NCBI RefSeq assembly: GCF_965363235.1
Contig: NC_134848.1
Coordinates: 60,288,181-60,352,180, forward strand
DNA length: 64,000 nucleotides
Reading direction: 5' to 3'
Source: Mytilus galloprovincialis
Taxonomy: Eukaryota > Mollusca > Bivalvia > Mytilida > Mytilidae
Shown here: piece by piece, positions 37,025 through 61,250 of the stretch
Position numbering within the stretch: the first letter of the stretch is position 1
Layout: each line of letters starts with the position of its first letter
Notes under the pieces: model-generated
What the model was told of the DNA's origin: nothing
Databases searched by the model: none
What the model saw: the letters and a program-made list of their open reading frames with translations, nothing else
Program-made: the position numbers and the translations under genes

Positions 37025-38645
37025 CTTGTGATTTTGTACTCAAAATTCAATTTTGTACGGACAAAAGTGAGTTTTGTTCAACAAAAATGAGTTCAGTTTA
37101 ACAAAATTTGTAGCATACTACAAATTTAAAATTTTGTCATACAAAATTCTCTTTCAGTGGACAAAAGTTACTTTTGTCATGACAAAATTCATTTTTGTAA
37201 CACAGACTTTACTTTTGTTACCTAATTTGAAAATTGGGCGACAAAAGTCAATTGTTTAGTTTGGATTCTGAGAACTAATTTGCATACAAAATCGACTTTT
37301 GTGACACAAAATTGCCTTTTGTGCGACAAAATTGCCTTTTGTGAGACAAAATTGACATTTGTGAGACAAAATAGACTTTTGTGAGACAAAATTGACTTTT
37401 GTGAGACAAAATTGACAAAATGGAATTTTGTCTCACAAAATTGAGTTTTGTCTCACAAAAGTCAACTTTGTCTCACAAAACTCAATTTTGTATGCACATT
37501 TGTTTAGTTTGGATTCTGTGAACTAATTTGCATACAAAATCGACTTTTGTGAGACAAAATTCAATTTTGTCAATTTTGTCTCACAAAAGTCAATTTTGTC
37601 TCACAAATGTCAATTTTGTATGCAAATTTGTTTAGTTTGTATTCTGTGAACCAATTTGCGTACAAAATCGACTTTTGTGAGATAAAATTGACATTTGTGA
37701 GACAAAATTGACTTTCGTGAGACAAAATTGACAAAATTGAATTTTGTCTCACAAAATTGTCAATTTTGTCTCACAAGAGTCAATTTTGTCTCACAAAAGT
37801 CAATTTTGTCTCACAAAAGTCAACTTTGTCTCACAAAACTCAATTTTGTATGTAAATTTGTTTAGTTTGGATTCTGTGAACCAATTTGCATACAAAATCG
37901 ACTTTTGTGAGACAAAATTGAATTTTTGTGAGACAAAATTGACATTTGTGAGACAAAATTGACTTTCGTGAGACAAAATTGACAAAATTGAATTTTGTCT
38001 CACAAAATTGAGTTTTGTCTCACAAAAGTCAATTTGTCTCACAAATGTCAATTTTGTATGCAAATTTGTTTAGTTTGTATTCTGTGAACCAATTTGCGTA
38101 CAAAATCGACTTTTGTGAGATAAAATTGACATTTGTGAGACAAAATTGACTTTCGTGAGACAAAATTGACAAAATTGAATTTTGTCTCACAAAATTGTCA
38201 ATTTTGTCTCACAAAATTGTCAATTTTGTCTCACAAAATTGTCAATTTTGTCTCACAAGAGTCAATTTTGTCTCACAAAAGTCAATTTTGTCTCACAAAA
38301 GTCAACTTTGTCTCACAAAACTCAATTTTGTATGTAAATTTGTTTAGTTTGGATTCTGTGAACCAATTTGCATACAAAATCGACTTTTGTGAGACAAAAT
38401 TGACTTTTGTGAGACAAAATTGACTTTTGTGAGACAAAACTCAATTTTGTGAGACAAAACTCAATTTTGTGAGACAAAATTCCATTTTGTCAATTTTGTC
38501 TCACAAAAGTCAATTTTGTCTCACAAATGTCAATTTTGTCTCACAAATGTCAATTTTGTCTCACAAAAGTCAATTTTGTCTCACAAAAGTCAATTTTGTC
38601 TCACAAAAGTCAATTTTGTATCACAAAAGTCGATTTTGTATGTAA
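37025..38645. repeat. 20-bp array with higher-order structure (left)
   Basis: Blocks of GAGACAAAATTGACTTTTGT face blocks of the complement. They are punctuated by TTTGTTTAGTTTGGATTCTG plus TGAACCAATTTGCATACAAA near 37258, 37500, 37625, 37858, 38068 and 38340. That spacing gives a higher-order repeat of about 240-450 bp. The unit contains ACAAAA..TTTTGT and can pair with itself. Long frames such as those reading SQKSILSHKSQFCLTKVNF arise because 20 is not a multiple of three; the peptide repeats every 20 residues. They are not genes. Confidence 0.9.
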
Positions 38646-42115: not shown

Positions 42116-42445
42116 GTAGCTACAAATTCACACATATATTTTCAATCGACCCTTCGTGTCCCAATTGCATTCGTGTAAATTAACATTCATTTGCATTTAC
42201 GATTTCAATGGTTTTTTGCAATTGTCAACACAAAACTTTATATGACCTGTAAATTAACAATATTGCATCTTATCTTATCTTATATATATATTTAGATTTT
42301 TCAGAATAATTTTAGATTCTTCAGATTTCAAATCAATGCACTAATTCAAACGAAAATATGACTAGGCGGCCGATAATGAGCAAATCACACCCTATATATA
42401 TATAATTCAAACATAATTTCGTTTGAATTATTGTTTCAGGTCATA

Positions 42446-43498
42446 ATGGATATTGCAACTTTATCAGGTTCAATTCCTTCTTTGGTAAATCCACCAGCAG
42501 ACCCATCAGTAATTTTTCAGAATACGTTCAACTCAGTTATGGTAGTTATACACCCTCCCCCAGAACCCACTTTAGATATTTACCATCGGGTGTCTGAAGG
42601 AAGAAATGAAATGTGGCATGGTAGAGATGTATTTTTAATATTTTCAAATCATCGTTACGCATTTTACCGTTCATGTGGGGAAACACCAGAAACTATATTG
42701 CAAATGCTGGGAACAGTTGGGCCAAGGATACACGAGAGTCGTACTGGAAGACCACACAGACTTTCACCTATCAATCGTCTACTGTTAGTTCTGTTATGGC
42801 TCCGTAGTTACCCGTGTTACAATCTTCTTAGTTTACTTTTTGACGTTTCGTCTCATACCGTTTCTATGCACATAAGAGCCCTTATACCAATTTTATGGGA
42901 AATATATTCACCAAATATAGCCTGGCCTAGCCGTCAACAATGGCTTCAGTTACATGGGAACTGGTCAAACATTCCTACTGCTTTGGCAGCCATTGATGGA
43001 ACCTCCCATGCCATATACAGGCCTCAAGTAGAACCGCAGGAGGAATATTACTCTGGACATCGCCATGTTCATTGCATCCATACACAAATTGTAGTGGACA
43101 ATGAAAATCATATCCGCCTTGTTAAAAGTGGCTTTCTTGGCCATCAAAACGATGCTCAACAATTCAATCTGTTACCAAGTATTGGGACTAATTTAGAATT
43201 AGATTTTCCGCCAAATTATGTCATTTTAGCCGATAAAATTTATGCAGATCGTGCACCTATTGTTACTCCATATAGGAGACATCAATTGAGACGGAAAACG
43301 CCGAGGGAAAAAAGAATATGTAAGAAATTTAATAGAAGAATGTCTACATGTCGGGTGTACGTTGAACATGCAATAAGGCGTCTTAAGACATTTAGAGTTG
43401 TTGGAACTTTGTGGAGACATCGCAGAAATGAACTTAATCAAATTGTTGAATTATGTGCTGGACTTGTTGAAAGACAACATGATTTATTTTCGTATTAA
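42446..43498 (+). CDS. HARBI1-like DDE transposase of element X
   Basis: 350 residues, uninterrupted. The C-terminal half fits the DDE_Tnp_4 fold of PIF/Harbinger-type nucleases: AAIDGTSH (Asp184), SGHRHVHCIHTQIVVD, GFLGHQNDAQQF (Asp236), VILADKIYADRAPIVTPY (Asp263) and CRVYVEHAIRRLKTFRVV (Glu307). Asp184, Asp263 and Glu307 are the likely metal-binding triad that cuts and joins the transposon ends. A helix-turn-helix-like region precedes it (residues 105-150, with SPINRLLLVLLWLRSYP). TTTCAG at 42434-42439 just before the ATG looks like a splice acceptor, so a 5' exon may exist; I chose the first ATG after it. The frame opens 15 bases upstream at a TTG, which I do not favour. Intact catalytic residues make recent activity plausible. 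Confidence 0.85.
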   Translation: MDIATLSGSIPSLVNPPADPSVIFQNTFNSVMVVIHPPPEPTLDIYHRVSEGRNEMWHGRDVFLIFSNHRYAFYRSCGETPETILQMLGTVGPRIHESRTGRPHRLSPINRLLLVLLWLRSYPCYNLLSLLFDVSSHTVSMHIRALIPILWEIYSPNIAWPSRQQWLQLHGNWSNIPTALAAIDGTSHAIYRPQVEPQEEYYSGHRHVHCIHTQIVVDNENHIRLVKSGFLGHQNDAQQFNLLPSIGTNLELDFPPNYVILADKIYADRAPIVTPYRRHQLRRKTPREKRICKKFNRRMSTCRVYVEHAIRRLKTFRVVGTLWRHRRNELNQIVELCAGLVERQHDLFSY

Positions 43499-46006: not shown

Positions 46007-46275
46007 TTGAATTTTGTCTCACAAAAGTCAGTTTTGTCTCACAAAAGTCAATTTTGTCCCACAAAAGTCAATTTTGTCTCAAGAGTTAATTTTGTCTCAC
46101 AAAAGTCAATTTTGTCTCACACAATTGACTTTTGTGTTTTAATTTCCATATCAGGTAACAAAAGTCAATTTTGTATGCAAATAAGTTTATATTTGCATAC
46201 CTTTATGACAAAATTGACTTTTGTCATGACAAAAATGAACTTTGTCTACAAAAATGAATTTTGTGATACCTTACC
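46007..46275. repeat. 20-bp array, second block
   Basis: Units of ACAAAAGTCAATTTTGTCTC, then a diverged part (TTTATATTTGCATACC, ATGACAAAATTGAC). Paralogous to 47778-48050. Confidence 0.85.
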
Positions 46276-46294
46276 GAAAAAATCAGCCTCCTGC

Positions 46295-46560
46295 AAATAG
46301 TTGCTGCAGGTCTGCTGCGAACTTGCTGCAGACTTGCAGCGAACACAGAGTCTGTGTTTGCAGCGTGTTTGCTGCAAATACGCTGCAGGTCTGCTGCAAA
46401 CAATTTACCATGCAAATGAGTGTTTGCTGCAGACCTGCTGCAAACATTTATATGCAATTGAGTGTTTGCGGCAGATCTGCTGCAAACATATTTATGCAAA
46501 TTAATCTTTCTCCTGCGTGTTTGCAGCAGACCTGCTGCCGGTGTTTGCTGCAGACCCTTG
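46295..46560. repeat. CTGCTGCAAAC / GCAGACCTGCTG array
   Basis: Irregular tandem of GTTTGCTGCAGACCTGCTGC and related words. PstI-like CTGCAG cores make it locally palindromic. It sits only in the junction between the two copies of the duplicated segment and is absent after copy 2. Open frames on both strands follow the repeat and are not credible. Confidence 0.85.
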
Positions 46561-46722
46561 AATTTCCAAACTAAACAAATTTGCATACAAAATTGACTTT
46601 TATGATACAAAATTGAATTTTGTCTCACAAAAGTCAGTTTTGTCTCACAAAAGTCAATTTTGTCCCGCAAAAGTCAATTTTGTCTCACAAAAGTCAATTT
46701 TGTATCACAAAAGTCGATTTTG
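46561..46722. repeat. 20-bp array, third block
   Basis: Five to six units of ACAAAAGTCAATTTTGTCTC before the common ATGTAAATTAGTTCACATAA that also ends the first array at 38641-38660. Confidence 0.85.
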
Positions 46723-47777
46723 TATGTAAATTAGTTCACATAATCCAAAGTTCAAAGGATCCGGAAATTTTTTCACCTAATTTCGGTCATTTTCATATAA
46801 CTTAAAAGTTGGTGCCCCTTTTCAAAAACAGATTGTCAAAATCTCATTACTGCATGAGTATGCTCCTACTCGTAGCATCAACGAACTTGTTTAACTGTTG
46901 CATCGCGTTTACTTCATGATTTATCCTACCATTTTCCTAAAATCGATCAAGAGCAATTAAGGGAAGGCAACAGTTTAAGAATAAAATGATTTTAATGACT
47001 CAAAATCGTAATTTTCTCAGTCATGGCTTTCGATTCTGAAGTCGAAATTCAAACCGGATGTAATGCGACAATACCAAAACGAACAATTCCGGACTTATTC
47101 CCGGGATTAGTTTTGTTTATCAAATTCACAGGAAAACATCGTTTTTTTTTAATATTTTACCTTTAATAGTGTAAGAATATTAATGAAAATAGTTGCACTT
47201 GCTTTATTTAGCAAGAAATCATTTTAAATTTACGATTTAGTCAAATTTGCGGAAGAGAATTTTAGGCATGCGTATCATAGTAAACAAAGCACGTGTGTTA
47301 GTAGTGAAAAAAAAATCTTTTTTCTACGTAAATTAAATCAAGTTTTAATTTAATTTTAAATCATAATTGACAATTGTCTTAGCTGAAAAGTAATTAAATA
47401 ATGAAGACAGTTGGTATTGAATTTTAATTTCTTCATAATATTAGTTCGGAGCTTGTGATTAATAGTCAGGTGTGAATTAAATACACAGGTAAAGAGATTA
47501 GCCATCATTAGCCAATAGCTCCCCGAGGCATTAATATAGTATTAGGAGGGCCCTCAGGATTATAACACTTTACTGGAGTGGCAGTTTAATTACATAAAAT
47601 CGATAACAAAACAAAAATATATGTTTAAAATGGCGATTTGAAACTCAATCTCAACGAAATGACCGAAATTATTTCTGTTGAAAAATAAAATTTGACCTAA
47701 ATCCCAATAAATGATTAGGACTTTTGAGTTTCCAAATCGGTCATGTCTGGCATATATGACCGTTTCCGGACCCTGAA
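46723..47777. repeat. Duplicated unique segment, copy 2 (uninterrupted)
   Basis: The same order as 38646-39449 plus 45774-46006, with the junction GTATTAGGAGGGCCC intact at 47539-47553. This preserves the empty TATTA target (47540-47544) of transposons X and Y. Confidence 0.9.
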
Positions 47778-48166
47778 TTGAATTTTGTCTCACAAAAGTC
47801 AGTTTTGTCTCACAAAAGTCAATTTTGTCCCTCAAAAGTCAATTTTGTCTCAAGAGTTAATTTTGTCTCACAAAAGTCAATTTTGTCTCACACAATTGAC
47901 TTTTGTGTTTTAATTTCCATATCAGGTAACAAAAGTCAATTTTGTATGCAAATAAGTTTATATTTGCATACCTTTATGACAAAATTGACAAAATTGACTT
48001 TTGTCATGACAAAAATGAACTTTGTCTACAAAAATGAATTTTGTGATACAAAATTGAAGTTCTCACAAAACAAGTCTGTATCACATAGTTTTGTAAGACA
48101 AAAATGATTTTGTTATGACAGAATTGAATTTTGTACAAAACCACAAGAGTCCCATTCGGCGCCCCG
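47778..48166. repeat. 20-bp array and right terminus of the composite
   Basis: The array decays rightwards into GTACAAAACCACAAGAGTCC and CATTCGGCGCCCCG, the complement of the left terminus at 37006. Confidence 0.85.
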
Positions 48167-50615: not shown

Positions 50616-51515
50616 TTAGTTAGCTTTTAATTTACTGATAACAAAATCAATATTTATACCAATAAAAACAATATTCAATGATCTTATTACAGTGTTGAAT
50701 AGGAAACCTTTTAGAATAAGTTTATTTAAAGGAGCGACAAGTTTACATGGATCATTTCTCCGGGCACGGTTAACAACATTTCCGTAAAAATGAGGATGTG
50801 CTATTCCATTTGAAATAAGTTTTCTACAGGCACAACCAAACTTCAAAACAAAATCTTTATATCTATGGAAAAAATTAGTAAAGGTTTTAAGTAATTTATG
50901 GTAACGATATCCCTGGTTTAATAATTTACCAGTAATACATAGATTGTGTTCGTTAAAATCAAAAACGTCACAACAGACACCGGCATAGCGAACGAGCTGT
51001 GAAATATAAACACCGTAAGATGGTGCCAAAGGAACATCACCATCTAAAAATGGAAAATTAACAATAGGGAACGAAAAAAAATTGTCTCTTTTGTCGTAAA
51101 TTTTTGTGTGGAGTTTCCCGTTTAAAACCGAACTATCTAAATCCAGGAAAGGACAGTTATTACCGAATAAATTTGATTTATTTAAAGTAAGTTCCTTGGG
51201 GTAAATTTCAGCAGTATATTGAGAAAATTCTTGATTATTTAACGAAAAAATATCATCAAGACAACGGTATGTGTTGTTGAATTTATCAATTAAATGCAAT
51301 TTCGACGGGTCTTTACTGAGTTTAGTCATAAATTGTAATTCGTAAGAGTACAAAAACAAGTCTGTTATAAAGGGGCACAAATTAGTGCCCATGGGGATAC
51401 CTACAACCTGTCAATAAACTTTGTTGCCGAAACGTACACAAATATATATCAAGGAGAAAATTAACAGCTTCAATCATCTCATATATCACACCTCCAGTAA
51501 GTATATCTAGCATGT
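50616..51515 (-). pseudogene. Reverse transcriptase relic (MGTNxxPxxxDLFLYSYE type)
   Basis: A 258-codon open frame (50616-51392) reads MGTNLCPFITDLFLYSYE, CLDDIFSLNNQEFSQY, IYPKELTLNKSN, FLDLDSSVLNGKLHTKIYDK, FPIVNFPFLDGDVPLAPSYG and VYISQLVRYAGVC. I know this series from a widespread animal RT family with MGTN(C)APLLADLF and YIDD...SLNN; I cannot say whether it is Penelope-like or non-LTR. The catalytic YxDD appears as CLDD. Upstream, VNFLLDIY and VRFGNKVY are joined by a frameshift, and a TGA replaces a codon just before QVVGIP. So the element is dead. The N-terminal RT motifs and any endonuclease are missing. Confidence 0.75.
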
Positions 51516-51968: not shown

Positions 51969-52226
51969 GGGAGCTACCATTTGACTTTTATGGGGGGGGG
52001 GGGCTAGGATGAAAAATTTTGTACTGCATTTTTTTTTAGCTGTAATCTCTGTCCTGCATTTTTATTTTTCACTCTGTTCGGTCCTGCCTTTTTTTTTTTA
52101 GTTTATCCTGACTTTTTTTTTGTAAGTGTCTCATCCTGCCTTTTTTTTTTACTCAAAACTCCTGTCCTGCCTATTTTTTTCAAATTTCATCCTAGCCCCC
52201 CCCATAAAAATCAAATGGTAGCTCCC
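51969..52226. mobile_element. Poly-G-ended short element, complete copy
   Basis: The ends are GGGAGCTACCATTTGACTTT and complement TTTGATTTTTATGG-type, closing AAATGGTAGCTCCC. TTA at 51966-51968 and 52227-52229. The interior has five TCCTGCCTTTTTT-like units between a G-run and CATCCTAGCCCCCC. TTA suggests PIF/Harbinger mobilisation (inference). Confidence 0.8.
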
Positions 52227-52229
52227 TTA

Positions 52230-52650
52230 TTTGAGTTTGAATTATACATGTATATATAATTCTATTAAAAAATATAGATATGAAGATAGGGATTGCATGA
52301 GTGCCAATGAGACAAAGTTTATGTCAAAGAAACAATTAATTCAAGTTCTTAATTAAAGTAAAATAATTATTGCGTCCAGTAATAACAAGGCAATGGATAT
52401 CATTTAATACTTTAATCTTATCAAAAAATGCCCTGGCAGACACAATGTCCTGTGAAAAAATGTTAACCTGGAGCAATATTATGGTAGTGAATAATGGCCA
52501 TGTTCATGGACACTTTTTCATACCTAAGGACATGTTTTCATAGGAAATTGTGTCCGGGACACATTTAAATAAGTAAATATTATCAAAATGTGTCCGGTGG
52601 ACATTTTTTCATGGAGGACATTATTAAATCATACATACATGTATACGTGT
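52230..52650. other. R3 fragment and TGTCC-rich stretch; no gene
   Basis: GATAGGGATTGCATGAGTGCC and AATGAGACAAAG at 52284-52318 are a fragment of the tail/R3 type repeat. From 52430, GTCC/GGAC words form hairpins as at 49680-49875. Confidence 0.5.
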
Positions 52651-52745
52651 AGATTTTGGCAAGTAAAGGATTCAGTTAGAGTAATACATTAGTAATAACA
52701 GAGATAAACATTTGTAAACACACTGATGAATCACAAAGTTAATCT
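52650..52745 (+). pseudogene. Decayed zinc finger unit
   Basis: AGTAAAGGATTCAGTTAGAG and AGAGATAAACATTTGTAAAC followed by ACACTGATGAATCAC match the order of the finger remnants at 49466-49640. It is separated from them by the RT relic and a short transposon, suggesting that insertions split an old finger array or its duplicate. Confidence 0.5.
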
Positions 52746-52794
52746 ACTATATATATATGCCAACCATTTCATGTAATATAAGTTATGATCATCA

Positions 52795-52990
52795 TAGATA
52801 TAGGAAGATGTGGTGTGAGTGCCAATGAGACAACTCTCCATACAAATAACAATTTAAAAAGTAAACCATTATAGGTTAAAGTACGGCCTTCAACACGGAG
52901 CCTTGGCTCACACCGAACAACAAGCTATAAAGGGCCCCAAAATTACTAGTGTAAAACCATTCAAACGGGAAAACCAACGGTCTAATTATA
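52795..52990 (-). repeat. Retroelement tail, subfamily 2
   Basis: Closest to 283-540 (GAGTGCCAATGAGACAACTC, GTACGGCCTTCAACACGGAG, CCTTGGCTCACACCGAACA). Confidence 0.8.
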
Positions 52991-53689
52991 TATAATAAAT
53001 CTATACATAAAATACAGTATATTGAATGAAAAGGCAGCTTTTTTTACTTTTGATAACAGCAGAGAAGATTGTGCTTAGAAGATTGTTACAGAAAGGAATT
53101 TAATTTTAGAATTTTTCATTACTTAGACAGATTTTCATCTTGCAAATACAGTTCCAAAAGATAAATGACATTGTTTAAGATCGAAAACTTAAAAAAACAA
53201 AAAACTGAGAGCTATCGAAATGTTAATTGATAAAATCATTTTCTAAACAGCGTGGACAACCGCATTACTTATGTTGGTAATAATATTTACTGAATCATTT
53301 ACCTTTAACTTGTTTGTTAGGGGACGACCATTTGATATTCTGGGGGGGGGGGGGGGGGGGGGGGCAGGAGGATTTGTTTTTGATCAGTTATTTATTTTTT
53401 TAAACTAAGAGGACAGATTATTCATTTTCTGCACTATTGAAGCAAGATTTTTCATTTTCATTAAAGCAAGGGACTGATTATTCATTTTCACAACTATATT
53501 TATGATATTCGAAAACATACAATTTTTAAATGATTTGTTTATTATTAATAATACATGTATAGTCAAGTCATTATGTACCATTTAATCAGAATTAATCATC
53601 ATCCTCTGCAGAAATGAATCTTTTATATTCCCAACTGCATATACATGTATTGCATACATACACAGTATTAAAGTTTGGTTGTAACTAGC

Positions 53690-54290
53690 CTCTTTTAAAA
53701 GTAATGACAAATGTATTTCGCCGAGCGGAGCGAGGCAAACAATTTTTTTGAAGGGTTTTGGAGCCACTTTCAAGGCCCAAGAAGCTATAGAACAAATGAT
53801 GCAAAATCATGCTTTCTGGGTGTTCCGAAGACCCTTTCATAATCTGAAAATGCAAGTTTTGTTTTAATCATTTTTTGAAACTATTTTGGTCTCAAAGCAA
53901 AATTTTAACAATTCAGTGTAAGACTTAAGTTAATTCTATGAACAACATCAAAATACCAATGTGCATGATAAAGCAAAAATGGAATTCACATAGTTAAGTC
54001 TGTGGCTGCTGTGGTTTTTTTTAAACTCATGATCAAGTTCGTAAGAAAATTACTATATTACAAAAGAAATGCAACACTAACAGAATACAGAAGGGCAATC
54101 GATGAACAAAAGACAAATAAATAATTAAGAAACATTGATCCCGAAAAAATCAGGGCTACGTCTGAGGGAAAACAGAACTTGCTTCCTGCAAGGCACTCGC
54201 CGTGAACACAATTTGATATGGAGACAATCATTTGGTTTTGAAATTTCCTACATGAGGCATTTGCCTCAATGCAGTTACGGCTCTGTTAAA
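53690..54290. mobile_element. hAT-type remnant related to 32799-34390
   Basis: TCGCCGAGCGGAGCGAGGC at 53718 parallels GAGCCGAGCGAAGCGAGGC at 32841, and ATGATGCAAAATCATGC parallels GAATGGTGCAAAATCCTGC. The right edge GCATTTGCCTCAATGCAG plus TTACGGCTCTG recalls AATTGCCTCACTTGCC plus CTACGGCCTTG. The left terminus and duplication could not be placed. Confidence 0.5.
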
Positions 54291-54762
54291 ATAAAAGTGA
54301 GGTAAGGTTTCTTGAGACAATACAGTCGGAAACCAGGTTGAAATAGAACAAAAGAATCGAAGCTCTTTGTTAGAGAAGGCGATAAATGTTTACTGTATTG
54401 TTTACTATAGTGACAAAATTTTTAAAAGTTAATAGAAACAAACAAAATTGCAATTTTCTTCTCAATTACGAGGTGTTTTATTTTAAAAACACCATTTGCA
54501 TAAGTTTTCAATTTATCTAGTACATAGTTAAGCAGAACAATTAGATATCAAGTCGACGACATGGGTATCTTTCAAGTTGGATGAAGAAAATGCATAACCT
54601 CCGATTTTTATGAAAAAATTACCACGGACGGAAAACATATCAATCTATTAGTTCAGTAATTTTCGTGTCTGCCCTTCCATTATGTGACTGAAGAAAAAAT
54701 TCCAAAAAATGGGTAACAATTGTATCGAAAAGAGAAAATCGAGTGCACCTTTTTATGTTAGG

Positions 54763-54767
54763 GCGTG
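54763..54767. repeat. Target site duplication GCGTG (left)
   Basis: GCGTG precedes the TGTTGTGAA terminus. The same GCGTG follows the other terminus at 56744-56748. Confidence 0.8.
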
Positions 54768-55326
54768 TGTTGTGAAAGTACAATTTACACGACGTAACGT
54801 CATATTTATTCCCGTACTTTCACTTTCCCATTGTTGACGTCAACTTCCGCCGAGCAATTGTTTATATGGTTTTGAAGAGCGAAGTTGATATACACCTCGA
54901 ACGAAGAATAAGAAGATTGATATTTGACTTGATATATATTTTATAAAAGGTAAACAGCATACATTTTACACATTTTACACACTGTATTATTTTACTGATC
55001 TCCGCATCAGGTTCTAAATATATACTTTGCCCTATTTATAGATTGTAGTTTCCCCTGTTTAATATAGCGCGATCGGCAATTCAAACACGTTAACGTTGGT
55101 TGTTCATTTGTTATTATTCATTCGCGTATTCCTGTGTGAATAAACTGTGTTGTATATTTATAGTGTATTATAATAAAGTATTGTATTTTTACATGTTGTT
55201 TGCATATAAACGTAACTGCCGTATAAAGTTGTGGTAATTGTTTAATGAGACAAATACTTGTTGTGAAGCCCATGTATGATTTTACCCGCTCGGACGTTTA
55301 TTCTATAAATAAATAAGTTCACAACA
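54768..55326 (+). repeat. LTR 1, forward orientation
   Basis: Starts TGTTGTGAA and ends TTCACAACA, the perfect 9-bp TG...CA inverted termini expected of an LTR. It carries TGACGTCA at 54835-54842 (a CRE-like palindrome), TATAAAAG at 54942-54949 as a possible promoter, and AATAAA at 55139-55144 and 55172-55177 as polyadenylation signals, in U3-R-U5 order. Confidence 0.85.
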
Positions 55327-55328
55327 AC

Positions 55329-55346
55329 TGGTGACAGCCGTGGGAT
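55329..55346 (+). promoter_or_regulatory. Primer-binding-site-like sequence
   Basis: TGGTGACAGCCGTGGGAT begins two bases after LTR 1. Its complement ends in CCA, as a tRNA 3' end would. Beside LTR 2 only TGGTG remains, so the second junction is truncated. Confidence 0.65.
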
Positions 55347-55375
55347 TAATTTAAAATTCGTGTTATTTAAAGATT

Positions 55376-55955
55376 GCAAAACTTTTCAAAGCAGTTTTTA
55401 GCTTTTGGTTTTGTTTTCTTTGTTCGGAAACTTGTCGTGATATTTTACCGAATTTAAAACTTTTTAAAACTGTTTTAGCTTTTGGTTTTAAGTTCACGTG
55501 ATCCTAAATTTCTAGACTTTGTAGGGCATATTTTGCTTTAGTCTATGAAATTTGTCCTTTTGTCCCGCGTTTCCCGCGTATCAAAACTTTTCAAAGCATT
55601 CATTGGCTTTTGGTTTTGACCCTTTCCCCTTTACTTCGCGTTATTTGATTTCAAAACTTTTCAAAGCGTATTTTGCTTTTGGTTTTGAAATATCGTATTC
55701 GTGTTATTTAAATTTCAAAACTTTTCAAAGCAGTGTTTGCTTTTGGTTTTGAAATATCGTGTTCCGCTGATTTGTAAGGGTTTCAAAACTTTTCAAAGCG
55801 TATTTTGCTTTTGGTTTTGAAATATCGTGTTCCGCTGATTTATAAGGGTTTCAAAACTTTTCAAAGCGTATTTAGCTTTTGGTTTTGAAATTTAACTGTA
55901 GGGCTAGCATTACTTCTATACTTTTTATAGCTGATTTAGCTATTGGTTTTGAAGG
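55376..55955 (+). repeat. Hairpin-unit tandem array in the internal region
   Basis: About eight units of roughly 70 bp, each with CAAAACTTTTCAAAGC and GCTTTTGGTTTTG. The two halves are complementary (CAAAAC/GTTTTG, AAAGC/GCTTT), so every unit can fold. Three central units share TATCGTGTTCCGCTGATTT-type spacers. The 66-codon frame here is a translation of the array. Confidence 0.85.
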
Positions 55956-56019
55956 TGTGTTTTTTTTTTTTTTATATGATCGTTTTCGGTATTTCAATAA
56001 ATATTTCAAATCCACCAGT

Positions 56020-56743
56020 TGTTGTGAACTTATTTATTTATAGAATAAACGTCCGAGCGGGTAAAATCATACATGGGCTTCACAACAAGTATTTGTCTCA
56101 TTAAACAATTACCACAACTTTATACGGCAGTTACGTTTATATGCAAACAACATGTAAAAATACAATACTTTATTATAATACACAATAAATATACAACACA
56201 GTTTATTCACACAGGAATACGCGAATGAATAATAACAAATGAACAACCAACGTTAACGTGTTTGAATTGCCGATCGCGCTATATTAAACAGGGGAAACTA
56301 CAATCTATAAATAGGGCAAAGTATATATTTAGAACCTGATGCGGAGATCAGTAAAATAATACAGTGTGTAAAATGTGTAAAATGTATGCTGTTTACCTTT
56401 TATAAAATATATATCAAGTCAAATATCAATCTTCTTATTCTTCGTTCGAGGTGTATATCAACTTCGCTCTTCAAAACCATATAAACAATTGCTCGGCGGA
56501 AGTTGACGTCAACAATGGGAAAGTGACAGTGGCGGATCCAGAAATTTTCATAAGTGGGGGCCCACTGACTGACCTAAGAGGGGGCCCGCTCCAGTCACGC
56601 TTCAGTGATTCCCTATATAAGCAACCAAATTTTTTCCCAAAAAGGGGGGCCCGGGCCCCCCGGGCCCCCCCCTAAATCCGCCTATGAGTGAAAGTACGGG
56701 AATAAATATGACGTTACGTCGTGTAAATTGTACTTTCACAACA
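56020..56743 (-). repeat. LTR 2, inverted, interrupted by a small transposon
   Basis: The reverse complement of LTR 1 over its full length, with the same TATA-like and AATAAA signals. It is interrupted at 56527-56686. Confidence 0.85.
56527..56686. mobile_element. CAGTGGCGGATCC element inserted in LTR 2
   Basis: The ends are CAGTGGCGGATCC and AATCCGCCTATG. AGTGA at 56522-56526 and 56687-56691. LTR 1 holds the uninterrupted sequence (complement GGGAAAGTGAAAGTACGGG), so the insertion and its 5-bp duplication are directly demonstrated. Very similar to 10569-10734. Confidence 0.95.
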
Positions 56744-56749
56744 GCGTGT

Positions 56750-57530
56750 TTGAGTTGAGTATTTTGTCTTGATATCGTACAAAGTAAGAATATTTCATAC
56801 ATCGTCTCGCTTCAGATTCTATCATTTTTATATATTAAAGCTACAGGTTGACTTTATAACACAAAAAAATCACAGTACTAAAAGATGAAATATATGGGTC
56901 AAGTGAAATACCTATCTAATGAGTCACAAAAACAGAGAAGGTGTGTTCGAATAGCTATTTTTTTAACGACAGTCTTTCAAGTTGGATGATGAAAATGCAT
57001 ATCTTCGAAAAATTCTAATTTTTTGTGTGTGATTACTAGGGTTTATAGTCTTCATACACTTAAAAAATCTAGTCTGCCCTTCCACGAAATATTTAATTAG
57101 AATTTTTTTAAATGTTTATGAATTTTCGAAAATTCCACCTGACAACCGATCAGACAATAGTTTTAAGTTGAATCAATGCAGACAAGATTATTAACTGATG
57201 CTCATTAGCTAGTTGATACATTTGTCTTTTAAAATACAACTGACATATAAGGATCGTAATGGTGCAATGTGGATAAATTTATAGGTTTCCAAGAGCAATA
57301 TTGGTAGCGCGTCATCCCTACAATGGCTTCCATTTCTACGATTGTAAAAATGAACTGGCGTAATGGGGAGATAATTTTGACGAAGTAGACTACTGACTGA
57401 ATATACCTCAATTTAAATGAAATCAATTTTCAGACATTTCAAGTATATTTAAATGATTTTATACTTTTATACTTTTATCTTTAAAAAAAAAAAGATGAAT
57501 TTATGAAGAATCTGGTGCCATCTCATACTT
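56750..57530. other. Interior of the TTA element; no gene
   Basis: AT-rich. CTTTCAAGTTGGATGATGAAAATGCAT at about 56976 is a diverged repeat of 54571-54593 (CTTTCAAGTTGGATGAAGAAAATGC), so the flanks on the two sides of the inverted-LTR unit share a direct duplication. Confidence 0.5.
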
Positions 57531-57701
57531 TCGATTAGACCTGCTGAGTTATTTATTTTCAATACATTGCAAGTCAAGTAATTTATTTTCAAACTACCAC
57601 AGAACAAACCATTTATTTTTGTGATTATCAAGGCTGAGTTATTTATTTTCAAAATCCTCCCCCCCCCCCACCCCCCAGAATATCAAATGGTCGTCCCCTT
57701 A

Positions 57702-58560
57702 TCGGCTATTGATAAGTGTTTTACGCTCATTCAGTTTATCAGAGGCCTTCCGGTGGTGATTTAAATAGAATAAAACAGTAAGTACATGCAGGTGCACGAG
57801 AGAAAAAAAGTATTAAACATTTAAATCACCACACACGGTTCATTCCTCTGCTAGTTATTCGTATTACTAGTATTTTATTAAGGCGTTTAAAATCTTTAGC
57901 GACCCACAGTTTAAATGTCTTTGACACACACGATATGACAACTGGGCGTTACAGACGAACGCTCACCTAACCTGAGCGTGTCAAGAAATGGTATGGTCCA
58001 CGCTGTTATGAAAATGATTCTAATACACTCGAAAATTGGCGAGTTTATAACATCGATAGTAAAGTTGTCCGATGAGTATTTTTTTTATACAAAAAAGACT
58101 TTATTACGGTTGAAACTCTGATTTAAATGAATGAACTTGAACTGAATAGTCATGACATATAAATTTGCTACTGAATATTAGACCAACAAATAAATAACAT
58201 TAATTAATGTACAAATAGCCATGTGCATGTATACTGATTACATAAGCGATAGTATATGACATTGTTATTGCATATTTATAAAACACCAAACGTTTTTTTC
58301 TGACTATAGAGTGGGCGCAATAGGGGGTCCGTTAACATGTTAACAACACCTCGATCTTGGCAAAAACAGTTAACAACAACTGCAAAAATCTGATAACAGT
58401 TAACAAATTGGGTTGATAACAAACCAATTTTATCTCGGATAACAACACCTTGAAAAAGGCCAAAACAGGTTTACATGAAAAGGTATTGCCCCCCTATGGT
58501 ATATATACTATATAGATATTTTCATATTTGTTCGTTGTTGCATCTTTAAAAACACGAGCA
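57702..58560. other. No gene; GTTAACA-rich patch
   Basis: 58318-58498 contains many TTAACA/AACAAC words and is bounded by CAATAGGGGG and CCCCCCTATGG, possibly a small inverted-end element. Elsewhere nothing was recognised. Confidence 0.35.
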
Positions 58561-58564
58561 AATT

Positions 58565-58790
58565 AATAAAATTGAGAATGGAAATGGGGAATGTGCCAAA
58601 GAGACAACAACCCGACCATAGAAAAAAAAAAAAAAAACAACAGCAGAAGGTCACCAACAGGTCTTCAATGTAGCGAAAAGTTTTCCCGCACCAAGAGGCG
58701 TCCTTCAGCTGGCCCCTAAACAAATATATACTAGTTCAGTGATAATGAACGCCATACTAATTTCCAAATTGTACACACGAAACATACTAC
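58565..58790. repeat. Dispersed repeat R3
   Basis: Similar to 41928-42115: GAATGGAAATGGGGAATGTG, CAGGTCTTCAATGTAGCG, CCCGCACCAAGAGGCG and GGCCCCTAAACAAATATATA. Confidence 0.65.
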
Positions 58791-59149
58791 ATGAAAATAA
58801 CTTTAGCAACCCACGCCACTTCTCTTTACATTGACACTGCAATTAAGTACAAACATTGTATTATAAAGACAAACCAAAAATAATTATGACACTGAACGAA
58901 GCATCTCACACACAATCGTTTAAGCAGTTGGAGCTTCAACTTTCTTATTTTTAATTGAATCTCTGATGTGGGAGTGGTACAAATCTGCATAATTATCTTC
59001 ATATTAGTAATTCGACAAATTTTTACAAAGTGTATTTAGTTTGGCAAAATGTTCGCTACTCTCGTCTCAGTCATTCTATATTTTGTTTGAGTTATAAATA
59101 TAGCCTGTTATTTTCACTAATATACTTATCTACCAACCAACCTTGATAA

Positions 59150-59280
59150 TATAGGGTTATTGCATGAATATTGGGGAATATTGTCCCGAGTAGAATTTTA
59201 TATTGCACGAGCTTGCGAGTGCAATATATGTTCTACGAGGGACAATATTCCCCAATATTCATGCAATAACCCTTTTATTG
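59150..59280. repeat. Foldback palindrome with GAGCTTGCGAG spacer
   Basis: The arms include GGGTTATTGCATGAATATTG, GGGAATATTGTCCC and ATATTGCACGAG with complements. Short GC spacer as at 7197 and 26057. Further GCAATA-rich words follow to 59450. Confidence 0.9.
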
Positions 59281-59834
59281 TATAGCAATATAATATTTGA
59301 AAGTATAAATTGGGTTAAACTAAGATTTAGTTGTTGATGACGTCATAAATTTTGATAATTTATTGCACTAGTGCAATATTAGAATTTATTGCACGTTAAC
59401 TTTTGGTTACTTTCTGTGGGGAATATTATATTGCTATGCAATAAATTGAATTACCTGTTCTTAGTCATTCGATTGACAAGGTCAAGTGATTTTTTATATA
59501 CATGTACATGAAAAATGCAAGTGGGAATAAAATTACTACTTTGGTCTTCTTCCGACTGGACGTAAACCATTGCCCTTGCCAAAGTTGGACGTCCGTTTGA
59601 TTGTGCGCGGTATGTATACATCTAGTGATGACGTTTTATCCGATTCATCTGGCAAAGAGAGTGCCACGCTCTCCTCTGCAGGTTAATTTGAACCATTGCA
59701 ACAACTTTTTGAGGGGCCGATGGTGGCCTTTGTCTCAGATTGTTGCAAGGCAAACGTCTGTCCCTATTCAATATACTTTAATATTTCAGTGACAGTCCAA
59801 GTTTCATTGACTTTTTTTCATCCTGGATGGCATC

Positions 59835-61250
59835 CAGGGGCGGATCCAGGATTTTGGAAAGGGTGGGCGAAGTAAATTGAATTTCGCCGAGCGGAGCTAA
59901 AAAACATAAAATACATAAAATAAGTGTACAATGAACTTTTTACACGGTTTCTGAAGTTGGGCATGCATATTTTATAGTTGCTATAAAGTGTAAGGGTCGG
60001 ACATTTTTGATGCCGTATTCTCCCATTATAAATGATTGGATAGATCGAAAGCTATACATGTACTAATATATTTGATGTGGGAGTTGGCAGTAAAAAATGG
60101 ACATGGAAATTTCTCGTTTGTTTATTTAGTAAAACCTCACAATTTATTTGCTGTAAACAAGATAGACGCCGGGCTATCGATGAAATTTACAATAAACCGA
60201 CACGAGATAAGAAACAAACAAACATTTTTTGTCCAAATGTTTGGTTGAAATGTTTCAGCCAACAAGGGAAGTGAGGGTTCCAAATTAACCAAAGTCCGGC
60301 TACGAATGAGTCTGAAAGGACAACGAATTTATGAATAATAGTCGACAAATGGAGACATAATGGCCACACCAAGCAGGCAGATTGCAGTCGGGCCTTGAAA
60401 AATGTATTCAATATATCAGTTCGGCGAAACAAATATTCCGGTCAGATATGGGATTTACATGCAAACCCCGGCAACAAAAAATAACACCCGTTTATTATTC
60501 ATCATGTTCATTTTATGCTAAATAATTATGTTTGAAATTTTTGTTTCTAATAGCAAATAAGTGGACAAAATTATTGTTTTCAATCCAGATATATACGACC
60601 AGAATTTATGATTAAGACAAAAATCAGGGTAAGATTTTTTCTCTCAAACTTCTCAGATCATTGCCCCCTCAAATCAAATAGTCCATACCTTTAAAAGACA
60701 TAAAATCTGTCTAGAGCTTACTGACTGGGGATCATCAGCTATGTTATTTATAGGCTGCCCGAAGGGCCTTTGGGATTAAACATTTTTTTGTAGATAGATA
60801 ATATTGCTATGGAACTTTCACGAGAGTGTAATAGAGTATTACTTTCTGTTTGGTGGAATTATGAAATAGAAGTCAGTATACGTTCATGTTCAATCCTTTG
60901 TTGCTTTGAACATGTTGAAGGTGTCATGCTTGTAACCTTCATCATAAGCAAGTGTTACTGTAATCTGAATTTCAAAATGACTGAATGACAGGTTTTTTTT
61001 CGACGCACTGGTTAACACCGCCGTAGCCGAATCACATGACGTTGACATAACCAATAATATATTACAGTAAATACGAGCAAAAATTATCGTTATAAGTTAA
61101 AAAATGTCGCATAAAAACAAAATATACGGGAAATGGCAAATTTCACGAAGTCTTAGTCTGATTAATAATTTTTACAAAAAAAAAAAAAAAAAAAAATCCA
61201 AGCAAAGGGTGGGCGTACGCCCTCTACACTCCCCTCTGGATCCGCCACTG
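59835..61250. mobile_element. Longer CAGTGGCGGATCC-family element, 1.4 kb
   Basis: The ends are CAGGGGCGGATCCAGG and CTGGATCCGCCACTG. GCATC is repeated at 59830-59834 and 61251-61255. Near the left end is TCGCCGAGCGGAGC, also found in the hAT-type elements at 32799 and 53690. Near the right end are a 22-base poly-A and GGGTGGGCGTACGCCC. The overlapping frames at 60036-60274 show no domain. Possibly a deletion derivative of the autonomous parent of the short copies. Confidence 0.85.

Follow-up and report, generated by a model that had tools for sequence, protein, structure and literature searches.

A unit built from two long terminal repeats (LTRs) that face each other was inserted into the Mytilus galloprovincialis genome as one piece, with a 5-bp target-site duplication. 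A second inverted pair with a 5-bp duplication of its own lies at another locus, and for both insertions related host sequences are available in which the site is still empty. The positions of the inner junctions can be read directly, and one type of junction is present at two loci of different LTR lineage. How does a retroelement come to be inserted with its repeats inverted? We consider it probable that these are dead-end insertions of wrongly made LTR-retrotransposon cDNA: aberrant reverse transcription would have produced a head-to-head molecule with two U3 ends, which was then integrated in the ordinary way. The window is the 64,000-nucleotide stretch C11:60288181-60352180, and the genome searched is the 1.385-Gb assembly of 331 contigs.

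The inverted unit and its empty sites

Positions 54768-56743 of the window hold a 559-bp LTR, then a leader, then a second LTR in reverse (Table 1). A first-pass annotation had described facing arms with TG...CA ends, both 559 bp long and differing at about one position. The facing arrangement and the ends are as described, and the left arm has that length, but the right arm measures 724 bp and holds a MITE that had gone unmentioned; once the MITE and its 5-bp AGTGA duplication are removed, 559 bp remain. When the MITE is counted as a gap, one mismatch remains between the arms over 559 positions, and there the A of the left arm is private to that arm in an alignment of 21 LTR sequences. The inverted identity extends 7 bases inward past the LTR (ACTGGTG / CACCAGT), a stretch that covers the 2-base spacer and reaches 5 bases into the primer-binding site. 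That site, seen in the first pass as a primer-binding-site-like sequence two bases inside the left LTR, proves to be of the tRNA-Leu type and follows an AC spacer. The MITE belongs to a family with 1279 first-look candidates in the genome, 40 of which were scored.

Table 1. Features of the inverted unit and of its direct-LTR relatives; positions are those of the window unless a locus is named.
Feature	Position	Strand	Remarks
Target-site duplication GCGTG, left copy	54763..54767	.	Single GCGTG in 6/6 empty sites compared
LTR arm 1, 559 bp, TGTTGTGAA...TTCACAACA	54768..55326	+	Homologous to LTRs of direct-pair and solo copies
Internal TTGTTGTGAA, LTR positions 491-500, complementary to LTR 3' end TTCACAACAA	55258..55267	+	
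AC spacer and primer-binding site TGGTGACAGCCGTGGGAT	55327..55346	+	16/18 bases vs complement of tRNA-Leu(AAG) 3' end
Parent-family non-coding leader, nine hairpin units	55347..56014	+	Ends abruptly where parent continues
CACCAGT, first 7 inner bases of second LTR, joined to leader	56013..56019	-	2-base overlap CA
LTR arm 2, inverted, 559 bp plus MITE and MITE duplication	56020..56743	-	
160-bp MITE, later insertion into arm 2	56527..56686	.	AGTGA at 56522-56526 and 56687-56691
Target-site duplication GCGTG, right copy	56744..56748	.	Single GCGTG in 6/6 empty sites compared
gag features, aspartyl protease, Tpt1/KptA-like domain	L011:2345-6405; L017:2436-6570; L016		

Could the second arm have been created during assembly, by a fold-back read or a mis-joined repeat? 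The locus is known here from assembled sequence alone. The MITE lies in arm 2 only, which argues that the arms are two physical copies and not an assembly fold-back; the mismatch between the arms, and the target duplications and empty sites at both inverted pairs, also speak against an artefact, which we regard as highly improbable.

The left flank of the unit is a high-copy host repeat (2448 first-look candidates; the 40 scored include the window). Six of the 39 other copies listed were examined, and all six read through the insertion point with one GCGTG. Filled and empty sites differ by the 1,976-bp unit, including the later MITE, and 5 bases; the unit and its 5-bp duplication were therefore added. 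The GCGTG 5-mers at the two edges had been pointed out in the first pass, and the empty sites are a stronger proof of a duplication than the chance of 0.002 that a random pair of 5-mers from the window agrees. The earlier claim of integration in one piece stands to the extent that an inverted unit bounded by a 5-bp duplication is missing from the empty sites, and this is the case at two independent loci.

The second locus, L009 (C6:58.519 Mb), has two identical inverted arms of 545 bp (0/545 differences) and is flanked on both sides by GTTCT. U3 is outermost in both pairs, and their duplications differ (GTTCT against GCGTG). The left flank of L009 matches an older host repeat. The five longest matches reaching the insertion point, diverged copies with 77-79% identity on the left and 85-87% on the right, all read through with a single TTTCT there. 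Between the L009 LTR and the window arms there are 14-15 substitutions and 2 gaps, but only 2-3 substitutions separate the L009 LTR from the direct-pair element L011. As judged from these alignments, the two inverted pairs arose independently and from different LTR lineages, since the arms are near-identical within each pair and 14-15 substitutions apart between the pairs.

Alternatively, a normal direct-LTR element might have been altered where it stood, whether through inversion, nested insertion or gene conversion, and the LTR family does include direct pairs from which this could start. Such a rearrangement, however, would need an exact break at the boundary between LTR and duplication at two unrelated loci, as well as loss of the body, and the empty sites show only the unit and 5 bp added. 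We consider this origin very unlikely.

The LTR family and its coding capacity

The first-pass annotation had proposed a genome search with the 559-bp LTR. This search gave at least 55 matches (the best 40 of 56 candidates were scored) at 32 loci including the window, by our own grouping of matches into loci, and all 32 were compared. Two of the 32 are complete inverted pairs, a lower bound for the genome; among the remaining 30 are truncated and rearranged copies as well as solo LTRs and direct pairs, so that solo, direct-pair and inverted-pair forms were all recovered, along with 5-bp duplications. The combination of TG...CA ends and a duplication of fixed length is that of an LTR retrotransposon. 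Exact 5-bp duplications flank the two inverted pairs and nine other copies: the solo LTRs L014, L015, L018 and L026, the interrupted LTR L028, the direct pairs L011, L012 and L016, and L022, a mini-element consisting of an LTR and a partial LTR. The flanking ends of L020 agree in 4/5 bases, and the 5-mers compared at L019 and L023 do not agree. No duplication was seen at the ends compared of L017 and L029, which are near full length, or of the other remaining copies, many of which are truncated or have a single LTR only. The LTRs of L011, L012 and L016 are in direct orientation; those of the window unit and L009 are inverted. Several family copies have a G-rich tract upstream of the 3' LTR.

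Some copies have unusual forms. At L022:1067-1744, the LTR and partial LTR are in direct orientation between the 5-bp duplications, with only about 34 leader bases separating them, and L034:1978-2821 likewise combines an LTR with a partial LTR in direct orientation. At L039, nine bases (ACTATTTGT) after the LTR might be a further fold-back, in a stretch too short and too old to decide. Five further places matching the LTR interior were recorded by location only (C12:28.706, C7:57.836, C7:57.910, C6:23.986 and C12:9.5275 Mb).

The primer-binding site of L011 and L012 is complementary to tRNA-Leu(AAG) over 19 contiguous bases, as in LTR retrotransposons. A variant of this site with 16/18 matches is found in the window and in four of the six other copies compared (L016, L017, L021 and L029). 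A degenerate pattern for the tRNA-Leu end has 176 exact places in the genome, 100 of which were listed, and at 3/3 loci tested from these places ARAGORN predicts tRNA-Leu(AAG). For the window variant, no tRNA was found in the genome with the T-loop pattern used; a shorter pattern of the variant gave 7 places, 5 of which are LTR copies and the other 2 of which have no tRNA gene by ARAGORN. The pattern places also include two tandem arrays of tRNA-Leu ends. One, at C2:59.07-59.18 Mb (L073-L075), has a period of about 1.28 kb, and its three loci tested gave predictions of tRNA-Leu(AAG) and tRNA-SeC. The other, at C10:4.87-4.90 Mb, has a period of about 1.34 kb and was seen as pattern places only.

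Has the inverted form propagated as a lineage, as the first pass had entertained? A search with the leader, in which 10/10 candidates were scored, found only the window crossing its inner junction, and no second copy of that junction, which the earlier annotation had suggested seeking at other loci, turned up in it. In addition, the 19 other aligned LTR sequences differ from the window arms at 14 positions or more. Neither result supports a propagating lineage. A search for such a lineage with CACCAGTTGTTGTGAACTT, for exact matches only, gave 8 places at 7 loci, two in the window and one at each of six others, and the idea was rejected.

These data also bear on whether the unit is a retroelement at all. 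A DNA transposon of the fold-back type, with long terminal inverted repeats, would have the inverted 559-bp repeats and the hairpin-rich middle that are seen here. Yet the same repeat serves as direct LTRs in elements that have gag features, a protease, a G-rich tract and a tRNA-type primer site, and it also occurs as solo LTRs with 5-bp duplications. The complete inverted pairs, two among the 32 LTR loci compared, do not amount to a family of inverted-repeat transposons, and an origin as a DNA transposon is hardly credible.

What do the direct-LTR relatives encode? L011 has open reading frames (ORFs) of 621 and 709 codons, and L017 of 560 and 838 codons. Pfam searches placed a zinc knuckle in the first of the two L011 ORFs and gave a gag match in L017 that is weak and falls below the curated cut-off; L011, L016 and L017 all have an aspartyl protease. 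The protease is followed by PF01885 (Tpt1/KptA, RNA 2'-phosphotransferase), which is a full domain in L017 (E 1.7e-57) and partial in L011 and L016. The L017 domain resembles the solved tRNA 2'-phosphotransferase 1 (7yw3, E 1.3e-51). Selection was considered as a sign of Tpt1 function and discarded: relative to L017, nonsynonymous and synonymous codon changes number 28:8 in L011, 28:11 in L029 and 17:8 in L016, which is near neutral by eye and gives no proof.

Five pieces each of L011 (E up to 0.001) and L017 (E up to 0.5), together with three ORF stretches of L016, were searched with Pfam for reverse transcriptase and integrase; neither was found, and no RNase H was reported. L029 was compared by DNA only. 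The failure to detect reverse transcriptase or integrase in the pieces searched makes it likely that the enzymes are supplied in trans, in line with what had been proposed for the integrase in the first pass. Across the genome, PF01885 gave 38 matches, with 50 candidates scored. At C14:7.14 Mb (L062, L070; C14:7140181-7147000), a Tpt1-like domain lies between a zinc-knuckle gag and a protease, and after the protease come a reverse transcriptase, RNase H, an integrase zinc-binding domain, integrase core pieces that are below the curated cut-off, and a PHD finger. We take this to be an autonomous gypsy-type element with Tpt1 among its gag-pol domains. In the stretches compared, it has no LTR pair and no similarity to the window LTR that would mark it as an autonomous helper with the same LTR. 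At L061, the stretch compared contains gag, Tpt1 and protease.

Inner junctions and the proposed mechanism

The LTR continues inward as LTR+ACTGGTG in the window and as LTR+AC at L009 and at another locus, L010; at all three, the first inner junction lies no more than 7 bases from the LTR 3' edge. On the other side of the window junction, parent sequence runs to about 687 bases from the LTR edge and then passes into CACCAGT with a 2-base overlap. At the centre of L009, what comes after the LTR and AC is complementary to the inside of that LTR (TATTTGTCTC...). The sequence turns back symmetrically around GTTA-ATT-TAAC, with the same fold-back extension on both arms, and a 113-bp piece is repeated in tandem.

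Besides L009, the exact L009-type junction is found at one other locus, L010, with four places in all. The L010 copy is rearranged: it is also joined at LTR position 239 and within gag, and its ends have no matching duplication. Its folded LTR shows 9 mismatches in 323 positions and one gap against its own 3' LTR, 9/318 and four gaps against L017, 10/321 against the L011 5' LTR, and 11/320 and three gaps against L009, counts that hardly discriminate. The variants TTATCATT, TACTTTTAC and TTCTTTAAAT, by contrast, are common to the folded LTR and the 3' LTR of L010 and, by eye, occur in no other aligned LTR. On account of these shared private variants, the same junction probably arose twice, at L009 and L010 separately.

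A candidate for the site of turning back is TTGTTGTGAA, which has one occurrence in the window LTR interior. By chance, such a 10-mer appeared in 43 of 20,000 base shuffles of the LTR interior. A 12-mer containing it is exact in 19 of the 22 other loci checked and absent from L013, L018 and L021. We propose that TTGTTGTGAA served as a self-priming site at L009 and L010, and not in the window copy. When the 3' part of the L009 LTR plus AC is folded as single-stranded DNA, the terminal bases are predicted to pair with the internal TTGTTGTGAA, leaving the final C alone unpaired, in both the minimum-energy and the centroid structure. It is from this predicted unpaired C that the sequence at L009 and L010 runs into the complement of the template. 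The 200-nt L009 fold overall is no more stable than shuffles (z -0.14); the terminal stem alone supports the model. Under this model, the L009 inner junction is the product that would be expected from self-priming of plus-strand strong-stop DNA.

A cDNA made by standard reverse transcription has one U3 edge and one U5 edge, and in retroviruses plus-strand strong-stop DNA extends to the LTR 3' edge and through whatever part of the tRNA is copied. If the inverted pairs are dead-end insertions of aberrant cDNA, as we favour, the 3' end of plus-strand DNA (U3-R-U5 and 0-5 bases of the primer-binding site) would prime on plus-sense element DNA, either on itself or on a sister molecule, in place of the normal second transfer. 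This would yield a head-to-head duplex bounded on both sides by U3 edges. Both edges would be accepted by integrase and the duplex inserted as an ordinary cDNA is, creating a 5-bp target duplication and requiring no unusual step. A snap-back product, being a hairpin, would have to be copied once more before it was a linear duplex, a difficulty that would not arise if two strands primed each other. We infer that joining took place inside the cDNA, before integration, and that plus-strand strong-stop DNA was the primer. From the second independent case it seems that the copying enzyme occasionally turns back on itself prior to insertion.

Several observations count against this mechanism. The overlap at the window junction is 2 bases (3 if the tRNA-copied site is in the arm), and end joining would give the same. 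The second turn-back of L009 lies inside the LTR and is accompanied by the tandem duplication. L010 has further joins away from the LTR edge, in addition to its unmatched ends.

Alternatively, two incomplete cDNAs could each give one U3 end to the same integrase complex, after which the host would join the inner ends in the chromosome. Two-ended integration of separate donors by retroviral integrases is known in vitro, and the asymmetry of the window junction (about 687 against 7 bases from the LTR edge) and its 2-base overlap would suit this route. For the window copy, two integrated cDNA ends followed by end joining are possible. The symmetric centre of L009, with its extension on both arms, is however explained more easily by self-copying, and the L009-type junction is seen again at L010. 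Overall, joining in the chromosome seems to us unlikely.

A stronger version of self-priming holds that the LTR carries a turn-back switch, its internal 10-base complement of its own 3' end, and that head-to-head cDNA is a regular, integrable side product. We think this quite unlikely; if true, such insertions have two inward-facing LTR promoters, and the long hairpin RNA to be expected from them could silence the parent family.

Relation to known elements and properties of the unit

The LTR family, which may belong to the Ty3/gypsy superfamily, resembles a non-autonomous gag-protease form of such elements in its TG...CA LTRs, 5-bp duplications and tRNA-Leu primer site, and the direct-LTR relatives do so in their G-rich (polypurine-like) tract, zinc knuckle and aspartyl protease. 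It differs in that the window LTRs are inverted and the coding body is absent, and in that no reverse transcriptase was detected in the pieces of L011, L016 and L017 searched. Inverted terminal repeats on a retroelement recall the DIRS-type retrotransposons, which use a tyrosine recombinase and make no target duplication. In contrast, the window unit has a 5-bp duplication and a primer-binding site, duplications and empty sites are present at two loci, and no tyrosine recombinase domain was among the Pfam hits of L011, L016 and L017. TRIM and similar elements are short and non-coding, with LTRs and a primer-binding site, as is the window unit; their LTRs are direct and they form families, whereas the LTRs here are inverted and no family of the inverted form was found.

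The closest likeness to the proposed mechanism is found in the self-primed, or snap-back, reverse transcripts of retroviruses, in which the 3' end of the cDNA folds back and is extended. The difference is that products of the window type were apparently integrated and inherited. The literature titles and abstracts searched mentioned neither integrated inverted-LTR copies nor Tpt1 in LTR elements. The two clean U3-ended insertions imply that in vivo the machinery moving this LTR family is able to work with two U3 edges, and that a fold-back cDNA can become heritable. Inverted-pair sites are natural records, at nucleotide level, of errors in reverse transcription, and they make the self-priming model testable. 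LTR annotation software that expects direct repeats probably misses such units.

The leader between the arms is shared with the relatives, and in L011 and L017 it is non-coding and precedes the first long ORF. Its nine hairpin units, of about 44 nt each, occupy window positions 55373-55955. The predicted RNA fold has a z of -9.04 against 20 shuffles, and 5/16 pairs have changed on both sides; the hairpin units are possibly a packaging signal. As its far end lacks a sense-oriented R region, the window unit should not retrotranspose by the normal route. Transcription from either LTR would proceed into the inverted arm, and the RNA could form a hairpin of up to about 559 base pairs.

An Rfam search of window positions 52000-60000 gave 0 matches at the gathering score. 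Elsewhere in the window, 37032-38639, 46010-46723 and 47781-48135 hold arrays in which a palindromic unit of about 20 nt (ACAAAATTGACTTTTGTGAG type) recurs. By eye, the ORFs at 42380-43498 and 50616-51410 resemble a Harbinger-type transposase and a Penelope-like reverse transcriptase, respectively.
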